Shown here: piece by piece, positions 446 through 54,509 of the stretch
How the letters are laid out: the number at the start of each line of letters is the position of its first letter
How positions within the stretch are numbered: position 1 is the first letter of the stretch
Assembly: GCF_025997915.1 (NCBI RefSeq)
Contig: NZ_AP026677.1
Span: forward strand, 868,001 to 932,000
Reading direction: 5' to 3'
Origin: Aquiluna sp. KACHI24
GTDB lineage: Bacteria; Actinomycetota; Actinomycetes; Actinomycetales; Microbacteriaceae
Length of the DNA: 64,000 nt
Made by a program: the position numbers and the translations under genes
The notes under the pieces: generated by a model
What the model saw: only the letters and a program-made list of their open reading frames with translations
Database searches by the model: none
Told to the model about the DNA's origin: nothing

Positions 446-450
446 AACTA

Positions 451-963: not shown

Positions 964-1091
964 AATTCTCCTGTGTGAGTGTCTGGGGCGAGTTTCCACC
1001 GTGAGCGTGGGGGCACACTCGGAGGTTTCTCAATGGTTTTCGATTTCGTCTGGATAGAGGGTCGAGACGCTCGAACTCGAAAAGTATTCCA

Positions 1092-1113
1092 GAAAAAGCT
1101 GGTTTTCGCCAGC
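1092..1113 (-). terminator. Rho-independent terminator after ffh
   Basis: Read on the minus strand, two bases after the ffh stop there is a GCTGG/CCAGC stem with a six-base CGAAAA loop, followed by TTTTT. The stem is only 5 bp, but stem plus U-tract in this position fits a terminator for smc-ftsY-ffh. It implies that rpsP-khpA-rimM has its own promoter in the roughly 130 bases between here and 963. I could not assign that promoter with confidence. Confidence 0.6.
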
Positions 1114-1114
1114 A

Positions 1115-2614: not shown

Positions 2615-2624
2615 AACTTTGCTC

Positions 2625-9220: not shown

Positions 9221-9235
9221 GGATAAGTTAGTTAC

Positions 9236-9943
9236 ATGGCTAACTTCAACCCACAGCGCTTGATGGTGGTTCATGCCCACCCGGATGATGAGACCATTTT
9301 CACCGGTCACGTCATTGCCCACGCGCTGAGGGCTGATGCTCAGGTGCAGCTGGTGACACTGACTCGCGGCGAGCGCGGAAACAGCAGAAACCCCAACCTG
9401 CGCTCACTAAATGGCAGCCCTGCAGACATGGCGAACTACAGATCTAACGCGCTGCTTCGTGCAATTGAGTCATTCGAGGGTCTCGAGCACACATTCTTTG
9501 GAACTCGGGCCTATCTGGAAACGAGTCAAGACTCAACTGGACTGGGCAAAATCTTCGATCGCGACCCGCTTTATCCCCTGACTCTCACTGGTTCGGGTGC
9601 AACCGTGGTGGCAGAGGAGCTTGTGCCGGTTCTGAAGAGATTTAGACCTGACACAGTTGTTACCCTCTCGCCCAAGAATCCCCACTCAGATCACAAGATG
9701 GCTTACAAAGCCGTCAAAAAGGCGATCAAGCTCCTCAAAACCTCCAGGCCCCCGAAGCACTTCGTTGTTGCAGAACCGGGTGATTCGGCAGAGGTTCGAA
9801 TTGGTGATTCTTCAACCGCAAGTATCAAGAAGCACGCAATGGCCAGCTATGCGGACTTTGTAACAATTAGCGAAAACTCATTCGACTTTGGAACCGGCGA
9901 AATCAAGTTCTCAGAGCAGGAAAAGCTTCGTCTTGTCCGCTAG
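9236..9943 (+). CDS. PIG-L/LmbE family deacetylase
   Basis: Zinc-dependent N-deacetylase of the LmbE/PIG-L family, 235 residues. The metal site is seen in AHPDDE (residues 14-19) and in the downstream HSDHKMAY. Actinobacterial relatives include MshB and Mca, which act on mycothiol precursors or conjugates. This protein is shorter than MshB (about 290-300 residues), so I do not assign mycothiol deacetylation. It follows typA by 15 bases and overlaps the start of the membrane-protein gene. The typA, PIG-L, small membrane protein order is common in Actinobacteria. The true substrate is unknown. Confidence 0.85.
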   Translation: MANFNPQRLMVVHAHPDDETIFTGHVIAHALRADAQVQLVTLTRGERGNSRNPNLRSLNGSPADMANYRSNALLRAIESFEGLEHTFFGTRAYLETSQDSTGLGKIFDRDPLYPLTLTGSGATVVAEELVPVLKRFRPDTVVTLSPKNPHSDHKMAYKAVKKAIKLLKTSRPPKHFVVAEPGDSAEVRIGDSSTASIKKHAMASYADFVTISENSFDFGTGEIKFSEQEKLRLVR

Positions 9944-10289
9944 GGCCAGGCTCTCTCAAATCGCCTCAGGAGCCCTTTTGGGGGCTGCTATCGCGGTGCT
10001 AGGGACAGTCTTTCACCAGGCGTGGATCCAAGGTTTTCCCTACGGCCTGATGATTTCCTTCGGCCTGGTCGTCTGGGCGATGGTTTCACTCAGGCGAATT
10101 AGGAGCAGAATTCCGGCTTGGGCGTGCGTTGTGGTTTCTGGGGCATTTGTCTTTCTATTTGCCCAACCCAATACAGATGTCATGATCCCGGCAAACTTCT
10201 CAGGATTGGCATGGAGTTATGGGTCGATAACTCTGGCTGTCCTGATAGCGGCTTTCCCGAGGATCAGAGGACTCGGTCAGAGTTCGTAA
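9933..10289 (+). CDS. Small integral membrane protein downstream of PIG-L deacetylase
   Basis: Hypothetical membrane protein of about 118 residues with four hydrophobic segments: IASGALLGAAIAVLGTVF, GLMISFGLVVWAMVSL, ACVVVSGAFVFLFA and YGSITLAVLIAAF. I set the start at TTG 9933, which overlaps the deacetylase stop by 11 bases and has CAGGAAA upstream; another TTG at 9888 is possible. It resembles in size and context a family of small membrane proteins found next to mshB-like genes in Actinobacteria (DUF6113, from memory). No catalytic motif is visible. Its last 13 bases overlap the convergent GT4 gene. Confidence 0.7.
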   Translation: MSARARLSQIASGALLGAAIAVLGTVFHQAWIQGFPYGLMISFGLVVWAMVSLRRIRSRIPAWACVVVSGAFVFLFAQPNTDVMIPANFSGLAWSYGSITLAVLIAAFPRIRGLGQSS

Positions 10290-11398
10290 AAAGTTCTAGC
10301 AATCTTGCTGACCTCGGATGCATTTGCCTTGCGCCTTATCGTCTCTCGATTCACGGTTGCGTTCATCGGGTCTTCTGAAAGCTCAAGGGCACGCAAAATC
10401 CCTGCGGCGACAATTCCGGGCTCGATTTGATGGATAGCGACCCCAGTCGAAGTAAACCACTCATCGCAACAAGCGGTGGCGGTTTGAACCGGGATGGCAC
10501 CCATCGCCATGGCCTCCAATAGTGAGGTTGAAATTCCATCGCTCTCAGATAGTCCAATGTAGATTTTCGACTCGGCGAAAAGTTCCAGGACTTGTCTATG
10601 ACTCATCGCACCCTTGGGGTAGATAGTGAACCTAAGACCGGTTCTTTTCTCAACCTCGCGCGCGTACCTGATGGTCTTCAAATTGGCTGAGTAAATGACC
10701 AACTCATAATCTGAAAGTGATCCTGAGATTGACTCAATCGCTTCCAGAGCCGTCACCGCTCGCCCCACCCAGCCTTGGTAGCCCTTGATGGCAATCTTGG
10801 ATCGCGCATCGGACGGCCTCAAAGCTTGTTCCAGCTCCTGCTGACCGAATCCCCCAGCATTTGGGATAACAGGCATTGCTTTGCCAACAAATCCGAGTCG
10901 CTTGGCCAAGGCGACATCTCGACTGCACTCCGCCGAGTAATAGTCGGCAATCTTCAAGAGCTGTTTCAGCTTGGCCAAGTGCTGTGGAAACTGCTGGAAC
11001 CAAAAAATGTCACTGCCCCAGTTGGTCACCATCAGCTTGAATGGGCGAGATCTATCGCCAAATGCCTGCAGCGAAATGTAACCGGCATTTTGAAGCTCTA
11101 GAGCGTGAACTAAATCTGGCCTAAAAGTCTTTGCAGCTATCCGGACTAGACTCCCACGAATCAAATTTCCAAAAAACTTGTCTGCAATCCAAAACGGAAG
11201 TCCGAATAAGCGAGAAAGCGGAAAGAGGTTGTAGCTGGCAGCGCCAGAGTTTCCAAGAAGGGCTTTTAGCTCGGGACGAATTCTGCGGTGTGGAGAGGAT
11301 GGGAATAGCAGGAACTCATAATCTGTGTCTTTGAATTGAGCGAGCCAGCGAGCAGAGTGGATGCTGTCATACATACAAATAACGAGAATCTTTTTCAC
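10277..11398 (-). CDS. GT4-family glycosyltransferase (GT-B fold)
   Basis: Retaining glycosyltransferase with a two-Rossmann GT-B fold, 373 residues. The start is GTG at 11398 (VKKILVICMYDSIHSARW), with GGGGAG upstream; a longer frame to 11479 would run into mutM. The C-terminal nucleotide-sugar site has the family E(x7)E pattern in ESDGISTSLLEAMAMGAIPV. The N-terminal half has the HALELQNAGYISL stretch typical of the acceptor domain. The sugar and acceptor cannot be told. It lies 28 bases after mutM, as the last gene of the coaD-rpmF-rnc-mutM strand, about 8 kb from the main glycan island. Confidence 0.85.
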   Translation of the reverse strand: MKKILVICMYDSIHSARWLAQFKDTDYEFLLFPSSPHRRIRPELKALLGNSGAASYNLFPLSRLFGLPFWIADKFFGNLIRGSLVRIAAKTFRPDLVHALELQNAGYISLQAFGDRSRPFKLMVTNWGSDIFWFQQFPQHLAKLKQLLKIADYYSAECSRDVALAKRLGFVGKAMPVIPNAGGFGQQELEQALRPSDARSKIAIKGYQGWVGRAVTALEAIESISGSLSDYELVIYSANLKTIRYAREVEKRTGLRFTIYPKGAMSHRQVLELFAESKIYIGLSESDGISTSLLEAMAMGAIPVQTATACCDEWFTSTGVAIHQIEPGIVAAGILRALELSEDPMNATVNRETIRRKANASEVSKIARTFYEL

Positions 11399-19693: not shown

Positions 19694-19723
19694 TAAACTA
19701 CCAGCATGGAGTCCAGTCTATGA
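19694..19723 (+). promoter_or_regulatory. Candidate promoter and five-codon leader ORF ahead of GT6 gene
   Basis: TAAACT (19694-19699) is a good -10 match. Six bases later an ATG at 19706 opens a five-codon frame (Met-Glu-Ser-Ser-Leu) whose TGA at 19721-19723 overlaps the GT6 ATG at 19720. The same bases provide GGAG for the GT6 start. This could be a leaderless uORF that couples translation to the GT6 gene, or simply the GT6 ribosome site. Confidence 0.35.
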
Positions 19724-20532
19724 TTCGACCCAAGATACTCGTTGTGACTATTGCGACCGGCAAGTACCTTGGCTACTTCGAGCGAAATCTGCCTGGTTGG
19801 AGACGTGCATTCGGAGCTGCGGGCGAGGTCACCTTCCAGGTCCTAACTGACAGCATCAGGGAAGGGGGTCATAACCTCGGCCCGGATGTCGAGGTCATGT
19901 TTCAAAAGCAACTCGAGTGGCCTATGATCACGCTACTCCGATATGAGATTCTGCTGAGCCAGGTGAATTTCAGCTCATTTGACTTCGTGGTTTGGTTGGA
20001 TGCCGACATGGAGGCCGTTGGCAATGTGCCCGCCTCGATATTTGAGCACCGCAGCATTGTTTTAGCGCGTCATCCCGGTTATGAGCTCCCGATAATTCGC
20101 CCAAGTCGAAAGTCTTGGCCAAGCCGAATTCTGAGCGTCATAGCGATTCTTATTCGCGCAAACACAGGTTATTTCGCCTTGGGTGACTGGGAGTGCAGAG
20201 AATCTTCAACTGCATTTGTCCCGCGCAAATCGAGAAAATCCTATGTCCACGGTGCAGTATGGCTTGGGCCATCCATGGAACTAAGGGAAATGTGCTCCCT
20301 TCTCGCTGAGCGGACTTCAGAGGACCTTAGGAATGGAATAATCGCCATCTGGCACGACGAAAGCCACCTCAACTGGTACGCCGCAAATTTCAAACCAGTT
20401 CTAGCGGATTTGGGATTTTCGGATTGGGAAGAATCAACGAACTTTGGCACCAGACCAACAATATTCTTGAGCCAAGATAAAGCGGTCCTGGACGCCGCTT
20501 TCAATGATGGGGACGGCGAGGACTTGAGTTGA
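19720..20532 (+). CDS. GT6-family (ABO/alpha-1,3-Gal(NAc) transferase-like) glycosyltransferase
   Basis: 270-residue retaining glycosyltransferase of the histo-blood-group family GT6. Family members move Gal or GalNAc in alpha-1,3 linkage, usually to fucosylated galactose. The most telling motif is WHDESHLNWY (residues 211-220), nearly the same as the vertebrate WHDESHLNKY. YVHGAVWLGP (175-184) matches the YxxGAxxGG region, and WLDADMEAVG (92-101) holds a DxD. The start is ATG at 19720 with GGAG nine bases upstream; a longer frame would run through fdxA's promoter. No signal peptide or membrane anchor is visible, unlike the Golgi enzymes. It is followed by GT4 and GT11 genes in a coupled operon. 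Family assignment is strong; the exact donor is not known. Confidence 0.85.
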   Translation: MIRPKILVVTIATGKYLGYFERNLPGWRRAFGAAGEVTFQVLTDSIREGGHNLGPDVEVMFQKQLEWPMITLLRYEILLSQVNFSSFDFVVWLDADMEAVGNVPASIFEHRSIVLARHPGYELPIIRPSRKSWPSRILSVIAILIRANTGYFALGDWECRESSTAFVPRKSRKSYVHGAVWLGPSMELREMCSLLAERTSEDLRNGIIAIWHDESHLNWYAANFKPVLADLGFSDWEESTNFGTRPTIFLSQDKAVLDAAFNDGDGEDLS

Positions 20533-21578
20533 GCCTTAGGTCAAGCTTGGGGATTATTTACACTGCGTTAAGGAAAAGCTTTTCAGGACCTCGGCAGTTT
20601 TGGGGTGTAGCTAAAGGCTCGACTGGTCCGAGAATTCTCATCGTTGCCCCAGGAGAAAAAACGATGCCAGTGGAGGGCTGGGGAGCGGTAGAGGCCATTT
20701 GCTTTGACCTTTACCGAGGCTTGAGTGGGCGCGGGCAAACCGTAGCGATGCTCAATTCCTGGAACATCCTCTACTGGTTCAAGGCGTTTGCCTGGGGCCC
20801 GACCGTGGTTGTCAATCACTACGACATTTTTTCAAAGGCACTTGGAATACTTTGCCGAGCATTCAGGATGAAGCTAATTACGGTTTCGCATTACGGATAC
20901 GCAGGCTTTCCAGAGCTTTGGTCGAAGGAGACTAGAGGTGTCATGAAGGCGACTGCTGAGTCGGACTTGGTAGTTTGCCTCAGCAGGAAAATTCGTGATG
21001 TCTGGACACGTGAATTCCAGATCAAAAACTCAACCGTGATACCCAATTACGTAAAGGCCGAAGTTTTCCTCACAAAGAAGGCTGCCGCTCGAAGGTTTAT
21101 TTGTGTAGGGAAAGTTGAACCTCGCAAGAGACAGGTTGATTTGGTCCAACTTCTGGGCGATGCGGTCAGCATTGAATTCGTAGGGGAGATAGTTGACAGC
21201 CGGTTCCACTCACTCCCTAAAAAGGCAAAAGAATGTTTTCTCGGGCCTTGGGATAGAAGTACCTTGGTGGAGAGGCTCTCTGATTACGAATATCTAGTAC
21301 TCCCATCCGATGGTGAGGCGGATGCTCTAGTTCTTTACGAGGGACAGGCCGCCGGATTGGGTCTGATTTGTACTCCTGAATCAATGGGTGCACAAGATGA
21401 CAATCTTGATTGGGTTCAAATTTCACCCTTGAGCGAAATGAAACATGTCCTTTTGCGCGCTCCCAAAATGACTGGAGCCCAGAGGGCTGAAATTCACACC
21501 CACGCCCGAGAGCACTATTCTCTTGAAAAATGGCTAGATGCGTGGCAACGCTGTATCGATAGCCTGGGCACCAAGTGA
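20529..21578 (+). CDS. GT4-like glycosyltransferase
   Basis: 349-residue GT-B type glycosyltransferase. Visible marks are the N-terminal GPRILIVAPGEKTMPVEGWG loop, the linker VIPNYVKAEVFL that normally precedes the donor domain, FICVGKVEPRKRQVDLVQLL, and LPSDGEADALVLYEGQAAGLGLI, where the family E(x7)E region sits. The TTG start overlaps the GT6 stop (TTGA), and its stop overlaps the GT11 start (GTGA), so all three genes should be translated together. Donor and acceptor are unknown. Confidence 0.8.
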   Translation: MSLRSSLGIIYTALRKSFSGPRQFWGVAKGSTGPRILIVAPGEKTMPVEGWGAVEAICFDLYRGLSGRGQTVAMLNSWNILYWFKAFAWGPTVVVNHYDIFSKALGILCRAFRMKLITVSHYGYAGFPELWSKETRGVMKATAESDLVVCLSRKIRDVWTREFQIKNSTVIPNYVKAEVFLTKKAAARRFICVGKVEPRKRQVDLVQLLGDAVSIEFVGEIVDSRFHSLPKKAKECFLGPWDRSTLVERLSDYEYLVLPSDGEADALVLYEGQAAGLGLICTPESMGAQDDNLDWVQISPLSEMKHVLLRAPKMTGAQRAEIHTHAREHYSLEKWLDAWQRCIDSLGTK

Positions 21579-22414
21579 AATTCCTTCTGCGCGGAGGCCT
21601 AGGTAACAGGCTCTTCATAATCTCCGCGGCCGTTCACTTCAAGACTGCTTTCGGCCCTTCATGCATTGTGATTCCAAAAGGGCTGACACTGACTCCATTT
21701 GAAAGAAGGATCTGCACAGAGCTAGAGATTCTAGTAATGGAAGAGCGCCTCATTGATAAGGCACGGAGATCTGCTGAGACCAGATTACCTACCTGTTGTT
21801 CCAACGCTGTATCTTGGCCCAGATGGAAGCTACTAAGGCAGACGGGGTGCGTGCCAATCGACCAAATCGCAGGAAGCCACGGAGTTATTGGGTACTTCCA
21901 ATGCGCCAATTATGCAGCGAACGCTTCGGACTGGTCTAGCTGGCTGGAAGACACTGTCATTTCGAATTCAAAAAGCATAATTCCGTCTCCAATCCCTAGA
22001 ATCCAAAAAGTTGCGCTCCAGATACGACGCGGGGATTATTTAGCGCATCAGGATCTATACGGATATTTGCCTAAGGCGTATTTCGAACAAGCGATAGATA
22101 AACTTGGAGCGCGTCTAGGTGAATGCGTTGTTTTCACGGATGATGAGAAATTTGTCAGGGACGAGTTCCGTGATTGGATGCGAGAGGCGAAATTTGCGTC
22201 GCAGTACTTTAATTCCTCAGATTCAGTGGAAAACCTTTACCTGCTATCTCGATTTGACCGCCTTGTGATCTCCAACTCAAGCTTCGGCTGGTGGGGGTCT
22301 CACCTCTCGGGTGGTGAAACGGTTGCGCCAGCAATTTGGGCCCATCAAAGCGTCGCACCTTCAGGCGTGCTGAAAGACGACTGGAAGCTTATCCACGATT
22401 TCGTTACGTTCTGA
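21575..22414 (+). CDS. GT11-family alpha-1,2-fucosyltransferase-like protein
   Basis: 279-residue GT11 enzyme; family members transfer fucose from GDP-fucose in alpha-1,2 linkage to galactose. The three family blocks are present: GGLGNRLF (7-14), LQIRRGDY (148-155, the HxRRxDY motif, with Gln where His is usual) and SNSSFGWWGSHL (233-244). The GTG start overlaps the preceding stop. Codon use looks less like the housekeeping genes (more ATA, TTA, AGG and AGA), suggesting transfer. No GDP-fucose synthesis genes (gmd, fcl) lie in this window. The last 11 bases overlap the convergent GT2 gene. Confidence 0.85.
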   Translation: MKFLLRGGLGNRLFIISAAVHFKTAFGPSCIVIPKGLTLTPFERRICTELEILVMEERLIDKARRSAETRLPTCCSNAVSWPRWKLLRQTGCVPIDQIAGSHGVIGYFQCANYAANASDWSSWLEDTVISNSKSIIPSPIPRIQKVALQIRRGDYLAHQDLYGYLPKAYFEQAIDKLGARLGECVVFTDDEKFVRDEFRDWMREAKFASQYFNSSDSVENLYLLSRFDRLVISNSSFGWWGSHLSGGETVAPAIWAHQSVAPSGVLKDDWKLIHDFVTF

Positions 22415-23249
22415 AGTCGTAGACGGGTTCACACCTACAGATGCTCCGCAGTAGGAAACGTAAGTGTCCGATGGCGGAAGGCCGAATTCGAATGATGTCA
22501 ACAACGAACAGCAGCATGACCTCAAGATATAAATGCCGCATCGAAAACACTTCAGGATACTTAGCCACTAGCCTCCTTCTCATGTAATTCCACTTCAGCG
22601 TGGAATGTATCGCTCCTAATCTGCCCCGGGAATCAGGGAAATGCTGTAAGCCAAGGTTGGGCTGAAGCAGTATCCGACCATGACTCTTGAAGCACATTTG
22701 GAAAGCGATATCTTCTGTGAGCATTCTGATTTCTGTGGGGAAGCCAACGCTTAGAAATACTTCAACATGTCCCGCCATGCAAAAGCCTGGGACCCAACCA
22801 ACTTCTTCCAGTCGCGGTGGCGTTCTTCCCAGGTGAGCCAGAGCCCCTTTCGAAATCCAATTTGCCCTTCGTAAAAGGGGCAAAAACTTCCACCCAGCAT
22901 CCATTTCTGAATCATTTGTCCCAATCAAATCTCGGGGGTTGGCAAGGACTGGAACCATAATTCGTTCAAGAAAATCTGGGGGGATTGAGACGTCGTCATC
23001 CAAAAATACAACTGTATTCGCCCCTAGTGCCGCAGCTCTTTCTAGGCCGATTTGCCGCTGAAAAGGCAGCCCAGGTAATGAATGGATAAAATGCAAGTTA
23101 CGATCTGCGAGAACTAATCCCAAATTGTCGTCAGAGGAGTCAACGACGATAATGAAATCAGGCGGAAGCGTCTGGTTTGAGAGTAGTCCCAGCAACTGCG
23201 TTAGTCGATCCGGTCTGTTGCGCGAACAAACTACCGTTGCGACCGACAT
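22404..23249 (-). CDS. GT2-family glycosyltransferase
   Basis: 281-residue GT-A fold glycosyltransferase. The N-terminus MSVATVVCSRNRPDRLTQLL is the usual nucleotide-binding strand and the metal-binding acidic site is FLDDDVSIPPDF (DDD at 84-86). I start it at ATG 23249, 20 bases after the epimerase stop; a longer frame to 23381 would overlap that gene and adds no GT2 sequence. There is no good ribosome site. It is the last gene of the minus-strand sugar-nucleotide operon and may add that sugar. The C-terminus holds a hydrophobic stretch (LYLEVMLLFVVDII). Confidence 0.8.
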   Translation of the reverse strand: MSVATVVCSRNRPDRLTQLLGLLSNQTLPPDFIIVVDSSDDNLGLVLADRNLHFIHSLPGLPFQRQIGLERAAALGANTVVFLDDDVSIPPDFLERIMVPVLANPRDLIGTNDSEMDAGWKFLPLLRRANWISKGALAHLGRTPPRLEEVGWVPGFCMAGHVEVFLSVGFPTEIRMLTEDIAFQMCFKSHGRILLQPNLGLQHFPDSRGRLGAIHSTLKWNYMRRRLVAKYPEVFSMRHLYLEVMLLFVVDIIRIRPSAIGHLRFLLRSICRCEPVYDFRT

Positions 23250-23268
23250 TAGCGAGCCCGAGTGCGAG

Positions 23269-24381
23269 CTACTGAGCTCGCCATCCTTTCCAAAAGTGCG
23301 CCTGCGCTGCAGTAGAAGCCAAGAATCGCAAAATGCTGGAAGAAAAATCACTCGCATCATAACCCTCAGGTATGCCATCAAATGCCGGAGCCTGTTCAGA
23401 TATCCTTACAGCGGCGATTAGTGATGGTGCATCGAACGCCCAGCTAACCATCCTCATGGCTTCAGCGCGTTCCCCGGATTGGCGAAAACTCACTGCTTTA
23501 AAACCGAGTATCGTCGCCTCTTCGCTAATTGTTCCTGAGTCTGAAATCACGCACTTGGCACTCAATTGAAGCCTGTTGTAGTCGAGGTAACCAAATGGTT
23601 CGTGAAAGTTGAAGCCGGGGAGAGAATCACTAGATATTGCCTCCAGGCGTTTGCGAGTTCTGGGATGGGTGGAAACAAGTATCGGAAGATTCCACTCATG
23701 ACGAACAGCAATCAACGATTCAAGGGCCAACTTCAGCCTTTGGGGCGAATCCACGTTCTCTTGGCGGTGAAGGCTAACGAGAAAGTACCCCCCCTTCTTC
23801 AACCCGAGGCGCTCAACCACATCAGAGGCTGCAATCTTGTCTTTGTAGTGCTCATAGATCTCTCGCACAGGCGAACCGGTTTTGTGAATAAAGCGCGGGT
23901 GAATCCCTTCGTTTAGAAGGTTCCGCATTGAATAGTCGTTGTAAGGAAGATTGAAGGTAGCGACGTGATCAACCATCTTTCGGTTGAGCTCCTCAGGAAC
24001 GTTGTTGTCGAAGGACCTGTTGCCAGCCTCCATGTGATAAACGGGGATGTGCATGCGCTCTGCGACCACTGCAGCAATCGCCGAGTTGGTGTCTCCAAGA
24101 ATCATCACGGCATCAGGATTCTCTTTGAGAAAGACCTCTTCGGACTTCTTTAGGGTGTCCCCCATCACGGTGCCAAAGGATGTGGTGTCCACGTTCAGGT
24201 AGTAGTCGGGTTTGCGAAGCTCAAGGTCTTCAAAGAAGACGTCATTTAACTGGCGATCGTAGTTCTGGCCGGTGTGAACCAAGATGTGATCGGTGTACTC
24301 ATCGAGTTTCGGAATGAGCCTCGAGAGCCTGATGATCTCTGGCCTTGTGCCGACAATCGTGATTACTTTGAGTTTCTTCAA
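23269..24381 (-). CDS. wecB: UDP-N-acetylglucosamine 2-epimerase (WecB/CapG/FnlC type)
   Basis: Non-hydrolysing UDP-HexNAc 2-epimerase, 370 residues. Visible marks are TIVGTRPEIIRLSRLIP, HTGQNYDRQLNDVFF, ILGDTNSAIAAVVAERM, HMEAGNRSFDNNVPEELNRK and SDSGTISEEATILGFKAV. It lies directly after a CapE/FnlA-like dehydratase (four-base overlap) and an RmlD-like reductase, so its likely role is the last step to UDP-N-acetyl-L-fucosamine or UDP-N-acetyl-L-quinovosamine rather than making UDP-ManNAc. The last 20 residues or so look divergent. Confidence 0.9.
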   Translation of the reverse strand: MKKLKVITIVGTRPEIIRLSRLIPKLDEYTDHILVHTGQNYDRQLNDVFFEDLELRKPDYYLNVDTTSFGTVMGDTLKKSEEVFLKENPDAVMILGDTNSAIAAVVAERMHIPVYHMEAGNRSFDNNVPEELNRKMVDHVATFNLPYNDYSMRNLLNEGIHPRFIHKTGSPVREIYEHYKDKIAASDVVERLGLKKGGYFLVSLHRQENVDSPQRLKLALESLIAVRHEWNLPILVSTHPRTRKRLEAISSDSLPGFNFHEPFGYLDYNRLQLSAKCVISDSGTISEEATILGFKAVSFRQSGERAEAMRMVSWAFDAPSLIAAVRISEQAPAFDGIPEGYDASDFSSSILRFLASTAAQAHFWKGWRAQ

Positions 24382-25400
24382 CGTGCTAGCTCCTGGCGAA
24401 CCTCGGGAATTGTAAGAAGTAGTTGCTTCACTCCCTCGACATCTAGTCTCTCGGTGTTATGTGAAGTGTAAGACTCAAGCTCTGGCGCTCTACTTTCGCC
24501 CTGCTCGAAAAACAGTGAGTAGTTGAGGTCTCGAGCATCGAGGGGCACTCTGAAGTATCCACCTCTATCCTCGGCCTTTACCCTCTCCTCAACACTGAGA
24601 AGCGACTCGTATAGTTTCTCTCCATGCCTGAATCCAATGTTCTGAATTTGATTCGCGTTTCCGCCGAACATTTCAATGAGGGCAATTGCAAGGTCCTGAA
24701 TCGTTGATGCCGGAGCCTTTCTCACGAATAGGTCACCCGTTTCGGCGTTTGAAAACGCGTATTCAACCAGATCGACAGACTCAGCCAAGGACATCAGGAA
24801 CCTTGTCATAGTCGGATCCGTGATGGTCACGGGTTTTCCGCTCTTGATTTGTGAAATGAACAAAGGAATGACAGAACCCCTGGAATACATCACGTTTCCA
24901 TAGCGGGTAACTGCAATTGTGGTTTTTGAATCCTGATAGTCGCGTGCGAACGCCATCGCAGTCTTTTCCATCAATGCCTTTGACATACCCATGGCATTTA
25001 TCGGATAGACGGCCTTGTCTGTACTTAGACAAACAACACCGGAAACCTCGTTCTCTATTGCCGAGCGCAACACATTGGCCGAGCCGTTGATGTTTGTTTT
25101 CACCGCCTCCAAGGGGAAAAACTCAGCCGATGGGACCTGCTTGAGGGCAGCCGCATGGAATATCAAATTTGAGCCTCGGACAGCACGCTCAACTGATTCA
25201 GGATCGCGGGTGTCTCCGATGTAGAACTTCACTCGACTGTCGCCAAGGGCATGACGCATGGCGTCCTGCTTAGCCTCATCGCGACTTAGGATGCGAACTT
25301 CCTCCACACCCCTGGTAAGCAAATGTCTCGCCATGGTTGAACCAAACGATCCAGTGCCCCCGGTAATGAGAACCGTTGAGCCGTCAATCTTTTGAGTCAT
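24378..25400 (-). CDS. CapE/FnlA-type UDP-GlcNAc 4,6-dehydratase/5-epimerase
   Basis: Extended short-chain dehydrogenase, 340 residues. It has the NAD(P) site ITGGTGSFGS (12-21) and an AlaLeuLysGlnValPro block typical of inverting dehydratases of the FlaA1/CapE group. The usual YxxxK is replaced by MGMSK, as in CapE/WbjB enzymes, which supports an L-sugar product over the PseB type. It converts UDP-GlcNAc to 4-keto-6-deoxy intermediates. It lies between the reductase (21 bases) and the 2-epimerase (four-base overlap). The metabolic role is inferred from this trio. Confidence 0.88.
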   Translation of the reverse strand: MTQKIDGSTVLITGGTGSFGSTMARHLLTRGVEEVRILSRDEAKQDAMRHALGDSRVKFYIGDTRDPESVERAVRGSNLIFHAAALKQVPSAEFFPLEAVKTNINGSANVLRSAIENEVSGVVCLSTDKAVYPINAMGMSKALMEKTAMAFARDYQDSKTTIAVTRYGNVMYSRGSVIPLFISQIKSGKPVTITDPTMTRFLMSLAESVDLVEYAFSNAETGDLFVRKAPASTIQDLAIALIEMFGGNANQIQNIGFRHGEKLYESLLSVEERVKAEDRGGYFRVPLDARDLNYSLFFEQGESRAPELESYTSHNTERLDVEGVKQLLLTIPEVRQELAR

Positions 25401-25421
25401 GCTTCCCCTCTTGCTACCGCA

Positions 25422-26291
25422 CTAGTTTGCCAGTTCAGCGCAAAGTTCCTCGACCATTTGAGCAACAGTCGGAACCTCGGGGTAACCAGCTGCCATAAAA
25501 AGCGCCTTATTTCTCGACTGGTTTTGCGTCGACAGAGTTCTGTCGACTCGATGGGTCGCCTCGGTGGAAGTAACCACAACATCGGATCTGCCTAGTGCGC
25601 TCAGTTCGAATCGAACTAACTCGTCCTTTGTCAATTTGTCTTTAGGAACGAGGTGTTGGATTCCCGGAGAGAACAGATTTTGTTCGACAATCGCTCTTGC
25701 AATTTTGGCAAAGGCGGCTGAGCTTAGGCCGTTCCAGACGTGGTTGGTAAAGCCATTGATGTGGGAATTTGCAGGCTGTTGTCTAACCCACTCAAAGAAT
25801 AGAGAATTGCGTCCAAGCTCAGGGCCAATCAAGGAGCAACGCAGGTGCATCACCGAATCCGAGGGAGATTCCCCCAAGCTCTTGGTTTTGCCGTAAACGT
25901 CGAGAGCGTCATGCTCTGCATCCTCAGCGTATGAGCCGACCTGCCCAGAAAAAACACAGTCTGTCGCTACCTGAATGACCTTGACTCCGAGCTTTTCAGC
26001 ATATAAGGCAAGCTGGTTGGGGAAATCAACGTTTAGGCGGACTGCAAGAGCCCTGCTAGGAATCGATGACTCATCGATGCGCGCTTTAGTTAGGCCCACG
26101 CAGTTGATGACAAAATCACCTTCACCAATCCCGCTGCGAGTAAGCAGATCGCTTACCTCAAGATTTCTGGCATCAAAAGCAACTCCACGAGTCCTCGACG
26201 CCTCTTCCACGTTTGCACCTGCACGAAGGAATTCTGAAAAAACTGCAGAGCCCAACATTCCAGTCGAGCCAAGCACTAAAACCTTAGGCAC
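25422..26291 (-). CDS. RmlD-like NAD(P)-dependent sugar-nucleotide reductase
   Basis: 289-residue SDR-type reductase starting MPKVLVLGSTGMLGSAVFSE (GxxGxxG). It carries VINCVGLTKA, VATDCVFSGQ and the catalytic YGKTK. It should reduce the 4-keto intermediate made by the dehydratase encoded next door. At 289 residues it has the RmlD fold only and lacks the C-terminal cupin domain of CapF/FnlB (about 370 residues). That makes UDP-L-QuiNAc (WbvR-like) as likely as UDP-L-FucNAc. It overlaps the upstream GT4 gene by 8 bases. Confidence 0.82.
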   Translation of the reverse strand: MPKVLVLGSTGMLGSAVFSEFLRAGANVEEASRTRGVAFDARNLEVSDLLTRSGIGEGDFVINCVGLTKARIDESSIPSRALAVRLNVDFPNQLALYAEKLGVKVIQVATDCVFSGQVGSYAEDAEHDALDVYGKTKSLGESPSDSVMHLRCSLIGPELGRNSLFFEWVRQQPANSHINGFTNHVWNGLSSAAFAKIARAIVEQNLFSPGIQHLVPKDKLTKDELVRFELSALGRSDVVVTSTEATHRVDRTLSTQNQSRNKALFMAAGYPEVPTVAQMVEELCAELAN

Positions 26292-27453
26292 TCTGCGCCA
26301 CCTCTCTGCATCGTTTCTCGAATGCCTCTATCGAGCGACTCAGCGTGAAACGCTCTAAATCTAAGTCAGCGCTGTTTTCCGAGCCTTCTCCTGTCCTGCA
26401 CCACGCTATTGCCGATTCGATTACCTCTTCCGCGCTACTCACGAGTGTTAACCGGGAACCTGAGCCGAAAGTCTTCTCAAGTCCATCTAGCCTGGTTGAA
26501 ACAACCGGCAATCCTGCAGCTAAGTACTGAATCACCTTGTTAGGGATTGCAGCGTTGGCAACCAGGCTGCGGTGCATGGGGTTGATTGCAATATCTGCAA
26601 TCTTTAGATAGCCGGGCAAATGTTCGAATGATATGAATCCCGTAAAGGTAACCCGGTTTTCAATACCGAGCTCTGAAACCAGCTCCCGCAACTCCTTATC
26701 CTGCTCTCCCCCGCCGATTAGTACCAGATGCTCTTGACCTTCAGACCTGGCAAAAGCTCGAATTACTTCTGGAAGCCCCGAGAAATAGAAGAAACTACCC
26801 ATGTAGAGAATCACCTTGGAATCCTTAGCAATCCCAAGGGATGCCTTCAATCCAGAAGGTGCAAGTGACGTCTCAAAGCGCTGAAGATCAATCGGTGGCC
26901 ATTCAACTGATGCTCTCTGAGATTTGGCACCCATCGAAACGCAATACTGGAGCATTGCGGGATTATTCGCACTCAACCAAGTCGATCGTCGATAGACGCG
27001 TTTCTCAGCAAGATAGATCAACTTTGAAAAGATGCCGGTTCTGATCTTGTGGGAGACATCAAGGGCTCGAAACAGGACCGGGACTTTAGCTCGCCTGGCG
27101 GGTGGGATCAACTGCCAACCTTGAGTAGGTACAGAGAAGCTGACTATCAGATCTGGCTTGAAGTTGGATATTACGGCCTTCGCTAACCCACCGGCCTTAA
27201 TTGCCGTCACAAGCCTCCCTATTAAGCCACCGCCTAATTGGGGAGTAAAAAGCGTGATTCTTGAGGAATTAACCACCCGGCCTTGAATCGCAGTCTTGAA
27301 TCCAAGCTCGGAAATTTGCTGCTTTGAGTACCCCTCAGGAAAGTGCCAAAACGCAACTTCGTGACCGTTGGCAGCAAGGTGCTCTGGGAATTCATGCATC
27401 TCATAGATTGGCTTGGTGAGGTAATTCACCTCATGGACAAAGAGAATCCTCAC
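26284..27453 (-). CDS. GT4-family glycosyltransferase
   Basis: 389-residue GT-B glycosyltransferase. The start MRILFVHEVNYLTKPIYEM and VSFSVPTQGW belong to the acceptor domain. ILYMGSFFYFSGLPEVIRAF, LVLIGGGEQDKEL and AAIPNKVIQYLAAGLPVVST form the donor domain with the E/K(x7) region. It is the first gene of the minus-strand operon that makes an N-acetyl-6-deoxyhexosamine. It lies 7 bases below the GT-C gene, so that gene may share the transcript. The sugar transferred is not known. Confidence 0.87.
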   Translation of the reverse strand: MRILFVHEVNYLTKPIYEMHEFPEHLAANGHEVAFWHFPEGYSKQQISELGFKTAIQGRVVNSSRITLFTPQLGGGLIGRLVTAIKAGGLAKAVISNFKPDLIVSFSVPTQGWQLIPPARRAKVPVLFRALDVSHKIRTGIFSKLIYLAEKRVYRRSTWLSANNPAMLQYCVSMGAKSQRASVEWPPIDLQRFETSLAPSGLKASLGIAKDSKVILYMGSFFYFSGLPEVIRAFARSEGQEHLVLIGGGEQDKELRELVSELGIENRVTFTGFISFEHLPGYLKIADIAINPMHRSLVANAAIPNKVIQYLAAGLPVVSTRLDGLEKTFGSGSRLTLVSSAEEVIESAIAWCRTGEGSENSADLDLERFTLSRSIEAFEKRCREVAQSA

Positions 27454-27460
27454 CTAACGC

Positions 27461-29191
27461 CTAGCCCTTGAGCTTGTAAAGCTTGTAGCCGTCGCCCTCG
27501 ATAACTTCTTCGAAGTCACCGACTGCACCCAAATCACCAACAGAAATGATGAACCTGGTGCCTTCAGGGGCAAGAGTTGCGTCGTACTGAGATCCAGGGC
27601 CAAAGAGTTCGTATGGCATGTTAGCGACGTCAGCCCAGATGGCCACGTTGGTTGCTTCGAAGCGAGAACCAGCCAGGACCAGAGTGTCTTCGCGATCAGC
27701 TTCGGACCAGTTTGCATAAACAAACTGACCAGCCTTGTCAGCTGCATTTGGAGTAGCTCTAAAGCCTTGGTACTGATCCTGAATCTGCCACCCAGTTCCC
27801 ACCATCGAGAACGGCAGGATCAAAACAAAAGTCCACTTCAGAAACTTTGGTGCAACTGCGAAGATCAACAAAGCGAGGGCTGAGGTTAGCGCAACGCCAT
27901 TCAGCACATCTTGATTCACAACCAACCCCGCAAGATTTGGAGCGTCTGCAATTTGGATGGTCAAAGTGCCAAAGAAACCAGAGAAGGCTGGAGTTATGAG
28001 CGCTCCGACAAGTATCACCAGCGCCCAGCGAATGAATACGTTCACGTTGTCTGCGAGGCCCTTCACGACAACCGCGAGTCCGGCGAGAGGCACGATCACG
28101 AACAGGAAGTCGTAGTAGCGCAAGAGAACACGCGTCGTGTGGTCGTCACCACCACCGGTAATCCACCCGGTAAACATGACGATTTCCACCATGAGGCTGA
28201 AAAGCCAAATAAATGCGAACAAGGCAAGTGCGGTGGTCGGGGTTAGCTCCCGAGCCCTAATCAATGCCACGAGACCGACGATTAGACCAATAATCGCAAT
28301 GCCCATCAGGGAAAACACTGTTAGGAGGTGAGTGTTTAGTTGAATTCCGAACAGTCCCACAACACCGTTCATTGCACCAGATCCGACGATGCTAGTCGCT
28401 GCACCGGTGGCTGGATCAGTTGCACCACCGGTTGACGCACCCTTGGTCACTTCTTCGACGACACCCGAGCCCAGGTAAACACCAAAGAATCCCAGGGCCT
28501 TAGGTCCTGCAATAGCAAAACCAATAACCACACGACTCAGAATTGCTGCGCCTGCGATTGCACCGACAGATACCAATAGAGGCTTATAGCGAAGCCTTGC
28601 TTGAGTTAGGCCGACAACGACCATGAAGATGCCGACTGCGATTGCAGATAGCCAGGCGTGAGGCTTGATGAGCGATGTGAGTCCAATAAGGCCGCCGACT
28701 ATTGCCCAGTTCTGCCAGGTGAAGTTTGTTGCCGCCTTCAACACGGCAAGCAGAACCAACCCGAGGAAGAAGAAATACATCGACTCGGGTAGGAACATCG
28801 AAGTGTAGACACTAAGTGGGCTCAACCCCGCTGCAATTGTGAATGCATAAGCTGGCCAGAAACCCATCAGTCGCTTGGCAACTAGAAAGATGATGAAGAT
28901 GAACCCGAGAAAGAAAAATAGATTGAGGTACTTGCCGCAGGTGTAAAAGCTCGATCCACAAAGGTTGGTGGAGCTATATACCAAGTTGAACAGGTAGTTA
29001 GAGAAGTCACCTGCCGGAGACGGATCCCATGGGGCCGCCTTTCTGGCATTGATTGAATACAGGTACTCATCACCCAAGATCGCAGGGTTGACCATCCAGA
29101 CGCGCGAGTAGATCCAGCCACCCAGGATGACCAAGGTTCCCAGCATCAACTGGTTCTTCCAGTCTTTGATGAAAGTGACGAAGTTATTCAA
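27461..29191 (-). CDS. Polytopic membrane glycosyltransferase-like protein (GT-C type)
   Basis: 576-residue membrane protein with about 11-13 hydrophobic segments between residues 15 and 470 and a soluble C-terminal stretch of about 100 residues. The first extracytoplasmic loop has NPAILGDEYLYSINAR, in which the acidic DE pair matches the catalytic site of GT-C enzymes that use polyprenyl-phosphate sugars. It follows a DPM1-like GT2 gene by 8 bases, which would supply such a donor. A role as polymerase or as arm-sugar transferase is possible; I cannot decide which. Confidence 0.7.
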   Translation of the reverse strand: MNNFVTFIKDWKNQLMLGTLVILGGWIYSRVWMVNPAILGDEYLYSINARKAAPWDPSPAGDFSNYLFNLVYSSTNLCGSSFYTCGKYLNLFFFLGFIFIIFLVAKRLMGFWPAYAFTIAAGLSPLSVYTSMFLPESMYFFFLGLVLLAVLKAATNFTWQNWAIVGGLIGLTSLIKPHAWLSAIAVGIFMVVVGLTQARLRYKPLLVSVGAIAGAAILSRVVIGFAIAGPKALGFFGVYLGSGVVEEVTKGASTGGATDPATGAATSIVGSGAMNGVVGLFGIQLNTHLLTVFSLMGIAIIGLIVGLVALIRARELTPTTALALFAFIWLFSLMVEIVMFTGWITGGGDDHTTRVLLRYYDFLFVIVPLAGLAVVVKGLADNVNVFIRWALVILVGALITPAFSGFFGTLTIQIADAPNLAGLVVNQDVLNGVALTSALALLIFAVAPKFLKWTFVLILPFSMVGTGWQIQDQYQGFRATPNAADKAGQFVYANWSEADREDTLVLAGSRFEATNVAIWADVANMPYELFGPGSQYDATLAPEGTRFIISVGDLGAVGDFEEVIEGDGYKLYKLKG

Positions 29192-29199
29192 GGTGTTAC

Positions 29200-30147
29200 C
29201 TATCTTCTCTGCTTGGGAACTTTTGGTTCCGACTGGACATCGTAGGAGAGGAAGGAGAGTAGTAGCTGCACTCCCAAAATGATTCCGATAGCTGCCAAGG
29301 TGACCTGACCAGCCGTGGTCGCTCTACCTGCAGAGGCCGCCTCAATATAGCTAGCAAGACCAAACCAAATTCCAAAAGTTAGCATGCCGATACCAACAGG
29401 GAGTTCGATGCTTGCGACCGACCACTCCCTCAAGTAGTAACGGTAAAATACTCGCTTGAGTAGGTTCACCGTGTGACGCCATGGAAACTCAACGAGAACC
29501 TTACGGATCTTTAGGTGACTCTTCTCATCCCCATAAACAGCCTTCATAGGAATGTCTGCGACAACGGCGTTCACGATACTCAGACGGAACAACAGGTCGG
29601 ACTCAAAGAAGTAGGACTTTCGAAGTTTGTCTAGGTGAATGTTTTCTAGAACTCTCCGATGAATTGCGGTGAATCCATTGGTTGGGTCGGTTACCGACCA
29701 ATAACCTGTGGATAGCTTTGACCATAGCGAAAGCACCGCATTGCCAAAAATACGCACCCGCGGCATTTCGTAGAGATCCTCGAGGCTGTCGAAGCGATTT
29801 CCCTTGGAGTAGTCGGCCTCGCCGTCAACCAGCGGGCGAATAAGCCTGGGTATCAGCCTTGGATCCATCTGACCATCGCCATCAACCTTGACCACGATGT
29901 CTGCTCCCGCTTCAAGAGCAGCTCGATAGCCAGTGATTACTGCACCACCCACACCTTGATTTTCAGAGTGGGCAAGAACAGTTACTCGCTTGTCTTTGGA
30001 GTGCTTCTTGACGAATTCACCTGAGTTATCAGGACAGGCGTCATCAACAACAAAAATCTGACCGACCTCAGGGCCGATTAGCTTCAGAACATCAAGAATG
30101 TGATTCGTAACACGATACGAAGGGATCACAACAGCAACAGCGCTCAT
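29200..30147 (-). CDS. Polyprenyl-phosphate glycosyltransferase (GT2, DPM1/GtrB-like)
   Basis: 315-residue GT2 enzyme that probably loads a sugar on undecaprenyl phosphate. It starts MSAVAVVIPSYRVTNHILD. The acidic site is VVKVDGDGQMDP (DGD), with GVGGAVITGYRAAL and DPTNGFTAIHR as further family marks. Two hydrophobic segments near the C-terminus (IELPVGIGMLTFGIWFGL and TLAAIGIILGVQLLLSFL) anchor it in the membrane, as in GtrB. It heads the minus-strand set with the GT-C gene. Confidence 0.85.
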   Translation of the reverse strand: MSAVAVVIPSYRVTNHILDVLKLIGPEVGQIFVVDDACPDNSGEFVKKHSKDKRVTVLAHSENQGVGGAVITGYRAALEAGADIVVKVDGDGQMDPRLIPRLIRPLVDGEADYSKGNRFDSLEDLYEMPRVRIFGNAVLSLWSKLSTGYWSVTDPTNGFTAIHRRVLENIHLDKLRKSYFFESDLLFRLSIVNAVVADIPMKAVYGDEKSHLKIRKVLVEFPWRHTVNLLKRVFYRYYLREWSVASIELPVGIGMLTFGIWFGLASYIEAASAGRATTAGQVTLAAIGIILGVQLLLSFLSYDVQSEPKVPKQRR

Positions 30148-33519: not shown

Positions 33520-33593
33520 AACCAGCTAAGTTTAGGCTCTAAAGGGCCTCGGAACCCGCTCGCGAATAGACTCTGTAATTGTTGAGGGGTCAC

Positions 33594-35390
33594 ATGCAAA
33601 AACTAACCTTCCGATCAATCGGAAAGATTCTCGAAAAGCCAGTTAGGCGCAAGTTGCTGCTTTTGGCAATCGCTCGAATCGCTGCCAACTTGCTGGACCT
33701 GCTTGGCCTTGCAGGCATCGCCCTATTGGCCACGGCATTTGGTTCTTTAGCCTCTGGATCGGCTGAACGCGCTCCATTGAATTTGCCGCTTGTCGGCGAG
33801 TGGTACATCAATGAATACGAAGCAGTCTTCATCGCAATGGGCGTTGCCGTGGTGTTTCTTCTGAAATCTGGCTTCTCGATTTGGCTCAATCTTCAGACCT
33901 CCCTCACAGTGGCAGGACTCGAAGGCAAGCACTCTCGTGAACTTGCGGAATCCTTTTTCTCGCCGATATCAAAGGGAGTTACCAACCAAGAGTCTGTCGC
34001 AGAGTTCCAAAACCGAGTCATGTACTCGACTGGCGCACTTACTTCCTTTTTGAACGCGAGAATCACGTTCATGGCAGAGGCCTCTTTGCTAGTTGCAATG
34101 GTGCTTATGTTTCTGCTCGTGAATCCGATAGCTACAGTTTCGATGTTTCTCTTCATGGGCGGCGTCCTTCTGGTGTTAAACCGAATGATCAACATCCGAA
34201 TTGTTCGCAATGGACAGAACCAGATGAGGGGCTACGAGGCGAGCCTACAGACCAGCAGGGACCTCTTCGGGGTCAAGCGAGAGGCTCTAAGCGCTGGTGT
34301 TGCAGAGTCCTGGCTGGAGAAGTTCACGCGGAGCCGCTATCAGGCGGCGCAAGGCGGAGCTGTAATTTATACACTCAACTCCCTCCCTCGATATGTTGTG
34401 GAGACCTCACTGATCCTTGGCATCTTTGCCTTCATCGGCGGCGTTGTAGTCTTCTCTGACCTACCATCCCAGGCAATAACAATCGGGGTATTTCTCGCTG
34501 GGGGTCTCAGACTAATTGCATCTGTGCTCCCTCTCCAGGCCGCAATCAGCATGATGAAAGACGGTGCGAACAGGGGGCACCTTGCATACGAGGCCCTAGT
34601 GGCTCGACAGTCAAGATCTGAGGCCCGACAAGACAGGCCACTGGATGTTTCGGCAATGAGTGGCATGTCATTCAACGACGTTCATTTCAAGTACCCAACC
34701 GGCCAGACAGAAGTCCTGTCATCGATCTCCCTCACCGTTCATCCACTCACTAAGGTCGCGATCGTTGGTCGATCGGGAGCTGGAAAGTCAACCATCTTTG
34801 ATCTTGCCACGGGCTTCCTTGAGCCAACCTCAGGCGAAATCAAAATTGGCAACCACACACCACGCGAGATCCTGTTTGGCGCTCCTGGAACCTTCGGAAT
34901 CGTTACCCAAAGACCACATCTTGTTACCGGCAGCCTGGTTGAGAACGTTTCTTTGGTTGACGACTCTTCATCAGACCGAGCAAAGGTGGAGCAGTCTCTA
35001 AACCGTGCGGGTTTGTCAAAGTTCACCTCACAGCCAAACTGGTGGGAGTTGCAGATAAAGCCTGACTCTGGGCAACTCTCAGGCGGTGAGATTCAAAGAC
35101 TTGGGCTTGCAAGAGCTCTTTATCGTGATCCAAAGATCCTGTTCCTCGATGAGGCAACCAGTGCGCTAGATGCTGAGACCGAAGCCGAAATCACCAAGGT
35201 GCTCCAAGAACTCAAGAATGAAATGACCGTGGTTCTGATTGCTCACAGACTTTCAACGGTCATGGGTGCAGACAAGATCATCTACCTCGACTCAGGACGC
35301 ATCGTCGCCGAGGGTACATTCCAAGAACTCAAGGCTTCAGTTCCCGACTTCGCTCGCGCTGTCGAGCTGATGGACCTAAGCGATAAATAG
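33594..35390 (+). CDS. ABC exporter, fused transmembrane and ATPase domains
   Basis: 598-residue half-transporter of the type IV exporter family. The membrane domain spans about residues 15-325 with six predicted segments. The ATPase domain (about 355-598) has Walker A GRSGAGKSTIFDLA (392-405), signature QLSGGEIQRLGLARAL, Walker B ILFLDEATSALD and AHRLSTV. ATG 33594 has GAGGGG upstream and a possible -10 TAGACT at 33567. A longer frame with two TTG codons at 33579 is less likely. Substrate is unknown. Lipid-linked glycan flippases of the PglK type have this design, and a glycan island lies 3.5 kb away, but that link is inference. Confidence 0.88.
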   Translation: MQKLTFRSIGKILEKPVRRKLLLLAIARIAANLLDLLGLAGIALLATAFGSLASGSAERAPLNLPLVGEWYINEYEAVFIAMGVAVVFLLKSGFSIWLNLQTSLTVAGLEGKHSRELAESFFSPISKGVTNQESVAEFQNRVMYSTGALTSFLNARITFMAEASLLVAMVLMFLLVNPIATVSMFLFMGGVLLVLNRMINIRIVRNGQNQMRGYEASLQTSRDLFGVKREALSAGVAESWLEKFTRSRYQAAQGGAVIYTLNSLPRYVVETSLILGIFAFIGGVVVFSDLPSQAITIGVFLAGGLRLIASVLPLQAAISMMKDGANRGHLAYEALVARQSRSEARQDRPLDVSAMSGMSFNDVHFKYPTGQTEVLSSISLTVHPLTKVAIVGRSGAGKSTIFDLATGFLEPTSGEIKIGNHTPREILFGAPGTFGIVTQRPHLVTGSLVENVSLVDDSSSDRAKVEQSLNRAGLSKFTSQPNWWELQIKPDSGQLSGGEIQRLGLARALYRDPKILFLDEATSALDAETEAEITKVLQELKNEMTVVLIAHRLSTVMGADKIIYLDSGRIVAEGTFQELKASVPDFARAVELMDLSDK

Positions 35391-54480: not shown

Positions 54481-54509
54481 CTTGTTTCCTTCGCTAGCTG
54501 CGCGGTAGA

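Follow-up and report, generated by a model that had tools for sequence, protein, structure and literature searches.

In Escherichia coli O86, the GT6 (glycosyltransferase family 6) alpha-3-galactosyltransferase WbnI and the GT11 alpha-2-fucosyltransferase WbwK are described as building Gal-alpha-1,3[Fuc-alpha-1,2]Gal (Gal, galactose; Fuc, fucose) (PMC4202792). BoGT6a, a GT6 enzyme of Bacteroides ovatus, is reported to have an NxN motif, to be metal-independent and to use uridine diphosphate (UDP)-N-acetylgalactosamine (GalNAc) (PMC3961637). Blood-group-like glycans of bacteria are mostly discussed for host-associated bacteria, as host mimicry (PMC4202792 and, in part, general knowledge). Here we describe a same-strand trio of genes in Aquiluna sp. 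KACHI24 encoding a GT6, a GT4-type and a GT11 glycosyltransferase. The trio occupies positions 19720-22414 (genome C1:887720-890414) of a 64,000-nucleotide stretch of contig NZ_AP026677.1, hereafter called the window. An initial annotation, made from the letters of the window, had called the O86 fucosyltransferase WbnK; the name given in the review is WbwK (PMC4202792).

The trio resembles O86 in having GT6 and GT11 enzymes in one locus, here known from the genes alone. Compared with the published description of O86, rather than with its locus sequence, it differs in the DxD motif of the GT6 enzyme, in a GT4 gene standing between the pair, in the QIRRGDY motif of the GT11 enzyme and in having its guanosine diphosphate (GDP)-fucose genes elsewhere in the genome. 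It shares with BoGT6a a bacterial GT6 enzyme with a WHDES motif and a C-terminal Lys (fold match E 1.8e-18), and departs from it in having DxD, with metal expected, and a donor triad leaning to UDP-Gal. The cyanophages S-CAM9, B23, Bellamy, DSL-LC02, ACG-2014f and P-SSM2 all have GT11 within 2 kb of GT6, and four of these six pairs abut. Their GT6 proteins are at most 33.5% identical to that of the window, the gene order is different, and the donor triads are QGC in five and AGG in P-SSM2, against His-Gly-Ala in the window. The nearest GT6 group comes from metagenome-assembled loci of Actinomycetota (L051, L052, L054, L055) and Bacteroidota (L056), in all five of which GT11 overlaps GT6 or lies within 0.6 kb of it. 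Their GT6 proteins are 30-37% identical to ours, their GT11 proteins 25-28% in the four listed, and the latter keep a His where the window protein has Gln.

What is new here is that the GT6-GT11 pairing recurs across bacterial phyla and phages. We propose that the trio is such a recurring glycan-capping set, and that its probable product is a fucosylated, B-like branch (Fuc plus alpha-Gal) on a surface glycan; we put the probability of this reading at roughly 0.6. A literature search that covered few subscription papers returned no description of GT6 and GT11 as neighbouring genes outside E. coli O86. Two cyanophages are counted with GT6 in a 2014 paper (PMC3961637), and GT6 and GT11 appear among the phage genes of compost soil in a 2025 paper (PMC12016548).

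The gene trio

Both junctions of the trio are four-base overlaps (TTGA and GTGA), from which GT11 and GT6 likely share one transcription unit by way of the GT4 gene. All three proteins exceed their Pfam cut-offs, each with E ≤ 2e-7, and the motifs WHDESHLNWY, LQIRRGDY and SNSSFGWWG are found in the translations. The three coupled genes, the overlaps and the motifs that the initial annotation had read here are thus borne out by frames, translations and Pfam, and its pairing of GT6 and GT11 in an operon holds; what it omitted is a likely UDP-L-hexosamine cassette at 23269-26291 and the place of the GT4 gene in the recurring set. The open frame of GT6 reaches upstream to an ATG at 19636, but the start at 19720 is favoured because of the N-termini of relatives. 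The trio begins about 60 bases from a divergent ferredoxin gene. The G+C fraction is 0.49-0.52 across window positions 20000-30000 and 0.50-0.54 in the surroundings. A recent import with foreign base composition was considered and rejected, as this fraction gives no sign of it.

The GT6 enzyme

The first protein matches PF03414 with 47.1 bits (cut-off 25) over profile positions 207-276 of 313, and NCBIfam Gltr_6 (NF041524) with 105.6 bits, which is under the stricter subfamily cut-off of 250. In a phmmer search of the Protein Data Bank (PDB), ABO transferases come up at E 1.7e-10. The match is strong over residues 157-228, and a second stretch, non-significant alone, places the DAD of the window protein opposite the DxD of the human enzyme. 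The AlphaFold model has a mean predicted local distance difference test score (pLDDT) of 87.9, and all 50 fold matches listed are ABO transferases or BoGT6a. The features of CAZy GT6 are present, namely a predicted ABO-like GT-A fold, the DAD, WHDESHLN with the catalytic Glu, and a C-terminal Lys (K254). The predicted activity is that of a retaining alpha-1,3-Gal(NAc) transferase.

The donor triad, aligned to human codons 266-268, reads His-Gly-Ala, and only L056 among 161 rows has the same. A human A transferase given His-Ala-Ala is reported to show 39-48% of control B activity and 0.3-0.6% of A activity (PMC6351642, Table 2). The B enzyme has Ala268 and the A enzyme Gly268, yet residue 268 is described as not itself donor-setting (PMC4202792). 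From the triad, therefore, UDP-Gal is a likelier donor than UDP-GalNAc, and a B-like product is a better guess than an A-like one.

Another bacterial GT6 enzyme with DxD is reported to be metal-dependent, and only two bacterial GT6 proteins with DxD were known to that 2014 paper (PMC3961637); the comparison suggests that metal dependence is to be expected here. In a sample chosen by similarity to a DxD protein, DxD occurs in 79/79 viral rows, while the 82 bacterial rows, those of L050-L129, divide into 35 DxD, 44 NxN and 3 NxT, so that DxD is common in them.

A PF03414 search finds GT6 in 1/150 genomes of the family, 1/22 of the genus and 1/396 of the phylum, always the genome of the window. 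Other Actinomycetota assemblies do carry it (L051-L055). A scan with the single window protein found no relatives in bacterial genome contigs or viral contigs; a query in which the window GT6 protein was aligned with those of phages and plasmids succeeded. Quick trees were built with Shimodaira-Hasegawa-like approximate likelihood ratio test (SH-aLRT) support from 59 GT6 rows and 41 GT11 rows, leaving out frames longer than 420 aa; for that reason the GT6 tree lacks L056 and the GT11 tree lacks L052. The window GT6 protein falls in an eight-row group (SH-aLRT 97) with the Actinomycetota loci L051-L055 and the Opitutae locus L050. One of these, the Nanopelagicales contig L052, has two divergent GT6 genes side by side at 8555-10292.

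The GT11 enzyme

The third protein matches PF01531 with 60.9 bits (cut-off 23.9), over profile positions 165-276 of 298 only. The phmmer search of PDB found no relative by sequence, and a single-protein scan of viral contigs found none either. The AlphaFold model has a mean pLDDT of 82.3, and its nine best PDB fold matches are to POFUT2, POFUT1, Arabidopsis FUT1 (AtFUT1) and FUT8, at template modelling scores of 0.36-0.45. The predicted fold is thus, though distantly, that of the GDP-fucose fucosyltransferases of CAZy GT11. The donor motif HxRRxD of that family reads QIRRGDY here, with both Arg and the Asp kept and Gln in place of His. The first Arg of this motif is described as especially critical in WbsJ (PMC4202792). 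A DNA pattern for LQIRRGDY occurs in 1/212 fetched loci, and that one is a copy of the window gene. Predicted membership in GT11 rests on the profile and the modelled fold, with one motif position failing, and the predicted activity is fucosyl transfer from GDP-fucose. The family assignments of both enzymes, which the initial annotation had offered for checking, are upheld by the Pfam profiles and the predicted folds.

Of 117 GT11 relatives ranked by BLAST, the best four come from L055, L056, L054 and L051, where near relatives of the GT6 protein are found as well. This suggests that the two genes were inherited or transferred as a unit, in a set of loci that was itself chosen by GT6 similarity.

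Recurrence of the pairing

The bacterial sample is the best 80 of 249 confirmed GT6 loci and the viral sample is 79 distinct loci of the best 80 of 429, picked by similarity to the window protein and including related records (many Gemmiger, near-identical phages). Frames were taken from stop to stop at a length of at least 120 aa and searched with home-made hidden Markov models (HMM) at E ≤ 1e-5, and loci ending at contig ends were counted as having no GT11. A GT11 gene is no more than 3 kb away from GT6 in 41/80 bacterial and 53/79 viral loci, and abuts it on the same strand, fusions included, in 22 bacterial and 40 viral loci. We compared these counts with 1000 shuffles of which gene is called GT11 in the 46 bacterial and 64 viral loci holding both, with kinship uncorrected. 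Abutment in the shuffles has a mean of 5.9 (maximum 13) in bacteria and 16.6 (maximum 27) in viruses, below the counts observed. The bacterial 3-kb count is also in clear excess over its shuffles (mean 22.7, maximum 33).

The near pairs are spread over Bacteroidota (10/10), Actinomycetota (4/5), Bacillota (11/18), Pseudomonadota (5/13), Melainabacteria (3/4), Verrucomicrobiota (2/3), Chlamydiota (1/4) and, at 1/1 each, Cyanobacteriota, Altimarinota and Spirochaetota; Myxococcota have 0/1, and unplaced loci 2/19. Two bacterial loci encode GT11-GT6 fusions by Pfam, GT11 first (L081, 3774-5363; L122, 870-2570), which might make an A- or B-type trisaccharide with a single chain. Seven of nine phage and plasmid stretches have GT11 near GT6, the other two being L048 and L049. 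Phage ACG-2014f (L046) has a seven-gene run at 316-5726 that includes gmd (559 bits, cut-off 415), an fcl-like gene (419, cut-off 500), GT11 and GT6; judging from these genes, the phage seems to bring its own GDP-fucose supply.

The middle protein of the trio matches PF13439 with 32 bits (cut-off 28.5), and its homologues keep the same company. The Bacteroidota contig L056 has GT11, an opposite-strand gene, GT6 and a GT4 homologue in one locus; the GT4 gene (3990-5114) is 36% identical to that of the window over 321 columns and is followed by an ABC transporter gene 30% identical to the window's. L064 encodes a GT4-GT6 fusion by Pfam, and one viral frame in L168 is apparently another, by HMM and BLAST only. 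The order GT4, GT11, GT6 is found in nine viral loci (L133, L136, L137, L146, L161, L164, L199, L200, L201), with near-copies apparent among them (L161/L164, L199/L200). In the phage collection, the middle GT4 is present (E ≤ 1e-8) in 16 of 50,697 records, every one of which also belongs to the 71 that carry GT6; several of the 16 are isolates or duplicates of one phage, and in some the GT4 gene is 6-8 kb off. As a rough control, the window's second GT4 is the best match in 2 loci only, and the middle GT4 in 24. On these distributions, the middle GT4 gene is a member of the recurring GT6-GT11 set.

Sugar-donor supply

The initial annotation saw no GDP-fucose genes and left the donor supply open. 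Both genes are in the genome. Outside the window and about 0.7 Mb from the trio, gmd scores 509.5 bits (cut-off 415) at C1:148461-149423, and its product is 52% identical to E. coli Gmd. The fcl gene overlaps the end of gmd; its product shares 53% identity with E. coli Fcl across 301 columns and scores 447.8 bits, under the NCBIfam cut-off of 500. A galE gene is also present (328.1 bits, cut-off 262.3), so that the genome holds the GDP-fucose genes and the UDP-galactose synthesis of an ABO/H-type pathway. The absence of gmd or fcl had been considered, and is rejected.

The genomes of L050-L056 carry gmd over the cut-off in 5/7 cases. In the sixth (G562), the gene is apparently broken in two, with a piece at each of two contig ends (309 and 145 bits), and the seventh (G564, with L053) has no gmd over the cut-off and no GT11 in its 6.1-kb contig. 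Among viral loci, gmd at 38% identity or more accompanies 8/64 of those with GT11 and 0/15 of those without. The tables also show that in G547, a genus relative, the gmd (C1:326124-327084) and an FnlA homologue (C2:436947-437911) each lie in two adjacent pieces.

Proposed pathway and its alternatives

In the pathway that we favour, the GT4 enzyme would add or prepare the acceptor sugar, GT11 would add L-fucose from the GDP-L-fucose made by Gmd and Fcl, and GT6 would then attach a hexose in alpha-1,3 linkage, most probably galactose, with UDP-galactose as the donor. These steps would give an H/B-like branch with alpha-Gal next to Fuc on one acceptor, probably carried on a lipid-linked glycan and flipped outward. 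The initial annotation had proposed a blood-group-like Fuc/Gal(NAc) epitope. That idea stands better than before, since genes for donor supply are present and GT6 and GT11 are paired in many phyla and in phages; a B-like product is favoured over an A-like one. With a Gln for the conserved His of GT11, and with the likely UDP-L-hexosamine cassette and the place of GT4 in the set left unmentioned, it is overall partly supported.

A number of observations weigh against this pathway. The GT11 fold matches are weak, with root-mean-square deviations of 9-12 Å and only six at E ≤ 0.001, and the tenth of them is the heptosyltransferase WaaC. GT11 has Q149 where 114/117 relatives have His and none has Gln, R12 for the Q of 108/117 and G238 for the S of 113/117; it is divergent, with an end branch of 2.4 and a nearest row only 26% identical. 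Within the genus, gmd is over the cut-off in 6/22 genomes and GT11 in 2/22, both of these among the six, so GDP-fucose is not made only for GT11. Nor does gmd (at least 38% identity) track the pair in bacterial loci, where it stands beside GT6-GT11 in 3/46 and beside GT6 alone in 4/34. The nearest GT6 by tree is that of L050, a 6.7-kb contig in which fcl and gmd lie no more than 4 kb from GT6 and GT11 is missing. The viral 3-kb count of 53 is within its shuffles (mean 46.7, maximum 56), and 34/80 bacterial GT6 loci lack GT11 over the length fetched. Finally, the vertebrate alpha-3-galactosyltransferase, which is also a GT6 enzyme, needs no fucose.

The GT6 loci that have no GT11 would be expected if GT6 acted alone on an unfucosylated beta-galactoside, giving an alpha-Gal type of product, while GT11 fucosylated another residue of the same glycan. 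The His-Gly-Ala triad is also akin to the HisAlaAla of alpha-3-galactosyltransferase. But direct abutment and the two GT11-GT6 fusions suggest consecutive steps, and WbnI and BoGT6a are tabulated with fucosylated acceptors (PMC4202792). We regard such separate action as rather unlikely.

The replaced His of GT11 opens the question of its donor. By our own reading of the motif, this residue probably corresponds to FUT8 His363, which is reported to contact the guanine base together with Asp453 (PMC8433944). The cassette at 23269-26291, near the trio, likely makes a UDP-L-hexosamine, as judged from its predicted products. FnlA, FnlB and FnlC of the UDP-N-acetyl-L-fucosamine (UDP-L-FucNAc) pathway are not all matched over cut-off there (Table 1), and we presume that a route of the UDP-N-acetyl-L-quinovosamine (UDP-L-QuiNAc) type with an RmlD-like reductase may be the better fit. 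GT11 might then use UDP-L-QuiNAc or UDP-L-FucNAc from this cassette, and the branch would be blood-group-shaped with an L-hexosamine replacing fucose. Single FnlA matches above 400 bits occur in 2/22 genus genomes, the same two that have GT11, and in one of them (G552) two GT11 genes lie some 4.5 and 9.7 kb away from the cassette. That genome is only 55% complete, however, and both of its GT11 proteins retain the His. Outside these two, G542 has an FnlA homologue of 250 bits, and G547, which has no GT11, has a broken homologue in two pieces summing to about 422 bits; the FnlA-GT11 association is therefore looser than two of two, and because of G547 we lowered our estimate slightly. FnlA homologues (at least 38% identity, E ≤ 1e-20) are found in 0/46 bacterial and 0/64 viral loci with GT6 and GT11, the weaker FnlA-like best matches in 32 loci being probably other dehydratases. 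Both genus genomes with FnlA and GT11 also have gmd, the best fold matches of GT11 are GDP-fucose enzymes, and to our knowledge the donors of GT11 enzymes are GDP-fucose. A switch to an L-hexosamine donor is thus unlikely.

The same replacements, together with long end branches in the GT6 and GT11 trees (1.41 and 2.4), could mean that the operon is decaying and no longer yields an active enzyme pair. Against this, all three frames are intact with their starts overlapping, GT6 keeps DxD, WHDESHLN and K254, and GT11 keeps R151, R152, D154, W239 and W240. L182 of GT6, where 152/161 relatives have G, was taken up as a sign of decay and dropped; a non-Gly residue at this position is common to the rows of L050-L056, which hold M, F or W. 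We consider decay very unlikely.

Returning to the fucosylated B-like branch, we tentatively suggest, with the odds somewhat against it, that GT4, GT11 and GT6 make up a mobile "ABO-cap" cassette, which many phyla and cyanophages have exchanged or reinvented, reshuffled and sometimes fused. If so, ABO-like branches would be a widespread microbial surface trait needing no link to vertebrate mimicry, and phages would carry cap genes to recoat the host. In the window genome, the replacement of His by Gln may be shifting the cassette to another L-sugar donor. Here the enzyme pair is in a small-genome bacterium, whose nearest GT6 relatives are in metagenome-assembled genomes, and the pair is also in cyanobacterial viruses; no vertebrate need be involved. 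If the product is as proposed, branches of the ABO type could be something that microbes have commonly invented, perhaps with a bearing on phage adsorption. The order of steps can be tested directly on the GT11-GT6 fusions and the recurring trio.

Neighbouring genes and comparison within the genus

The features of the locus are collected in Table 1. Convergent with the trio is a run of glycan genes, with smpB, identified by eye, beyond its far end. The candidate flippase scores well under the cut-offs for both MsbA and PglK, which are among 187 families that it matches.

Table 1. Predicted glycan genes of the trio and its surroundings (window coordinates).
Feature	Position	Strand	Evidence and remarks
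GT6 glycosyltransferase, 270 aa	19720..20532	+	PF03414; DAD metal motif, WHDESHLN catalytic motif, His-Gly-Ala donor triad
GT4-type glycosyltransferase, 349 aa, TTG start	20529..21578	+	PF13439; third member of recurring set
GT11 glycosyltransferase, 279 aa, GTG start	21575..22414	+	PF01531; QIRRGDY replaces HxRRGDY
GT2 glycosyltransferase, convergent with trio, start uncertain	22404..23381	-	PF00535 32.3 bits
UDP-GlcNAc (N-acetylglucosamine) 2-epimerase-like (FnlC/WecB type)	23269..24381	-	PF02350 278 bits; TIGR00236 (WecB) 209.0 (cut-off 210.15)
FnlA-type UDP-GlcNAc 4,6-dehydratase/5-epimerase	24378..25400	-	TIGR04130 (FnlA) 459.4 bits (cut-off 730); PseB 284
RmlD-like reductase, 289 aa	25422..26291	-	PF04321 66.5 bits; TIGR01214 61.2 (cut-off 224.05); no match to NF047837 (372 aa)
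Second GT4-type glycosyltransferase	26284..27453	-	Matches to glycosyltransferase models, all under cut-off
Large protein, probably membrane glycosyltransferase (function by eye)	27461..29191	-	No NCBIfam match
Polyprenyl-phosphate glycosyltransferase-like GT2	29200..30147	-	AglJ/PpgS-type matches under cut-off
ABC transporter, MsbA/PglK kind, candidate flippase (inferred role)	33579..35390	+	MsbA 212.9, PglK 147.3 bits

The loci beside fdxA vary within the genus. Five are readable (L037-L041), a sixth (L042) being too short. L037 and L039 share the ABC transporter and some of the window's glycan genes and have further genes too (listed only for L037), L038 has just the GT2 gene and the one for the large membrane protein, and L040 and L041 have no match to the window's glycan genes at this site. 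The large-protein gene is kept at the site in three of the five (L037, L038, L039) at 46-63% identity, and the polyprenyl-phosphate GT2-like gene is 71-77% identical in the same three. GT6, the middle GT4 and GT11 have no match in any of the five loci beside fdxA. The best explanation is that the trio sits in a variable surface-glycan locus.

In another genus relative (L043, G552:C23:1-20000), an FnlA-type cassette and two GT11 genes are accompanied by a GT10-like fucosyltransferase gene (PF00852, 31.5 bits) and, by eye, by a GHMP kinase and nucleotidyltransferase resembling heptose synthesis and by CDP (cytidine diphosphate)-sugar-type genes. Elsewhere in the window, two adjoining genes at 50461-54558 appear by eye to encode beta- and alpha-galactosidases. 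In L007, three tandem genes at 1757-7043, whose products by eye are secreted and alike, stand beside a galU-like gene.

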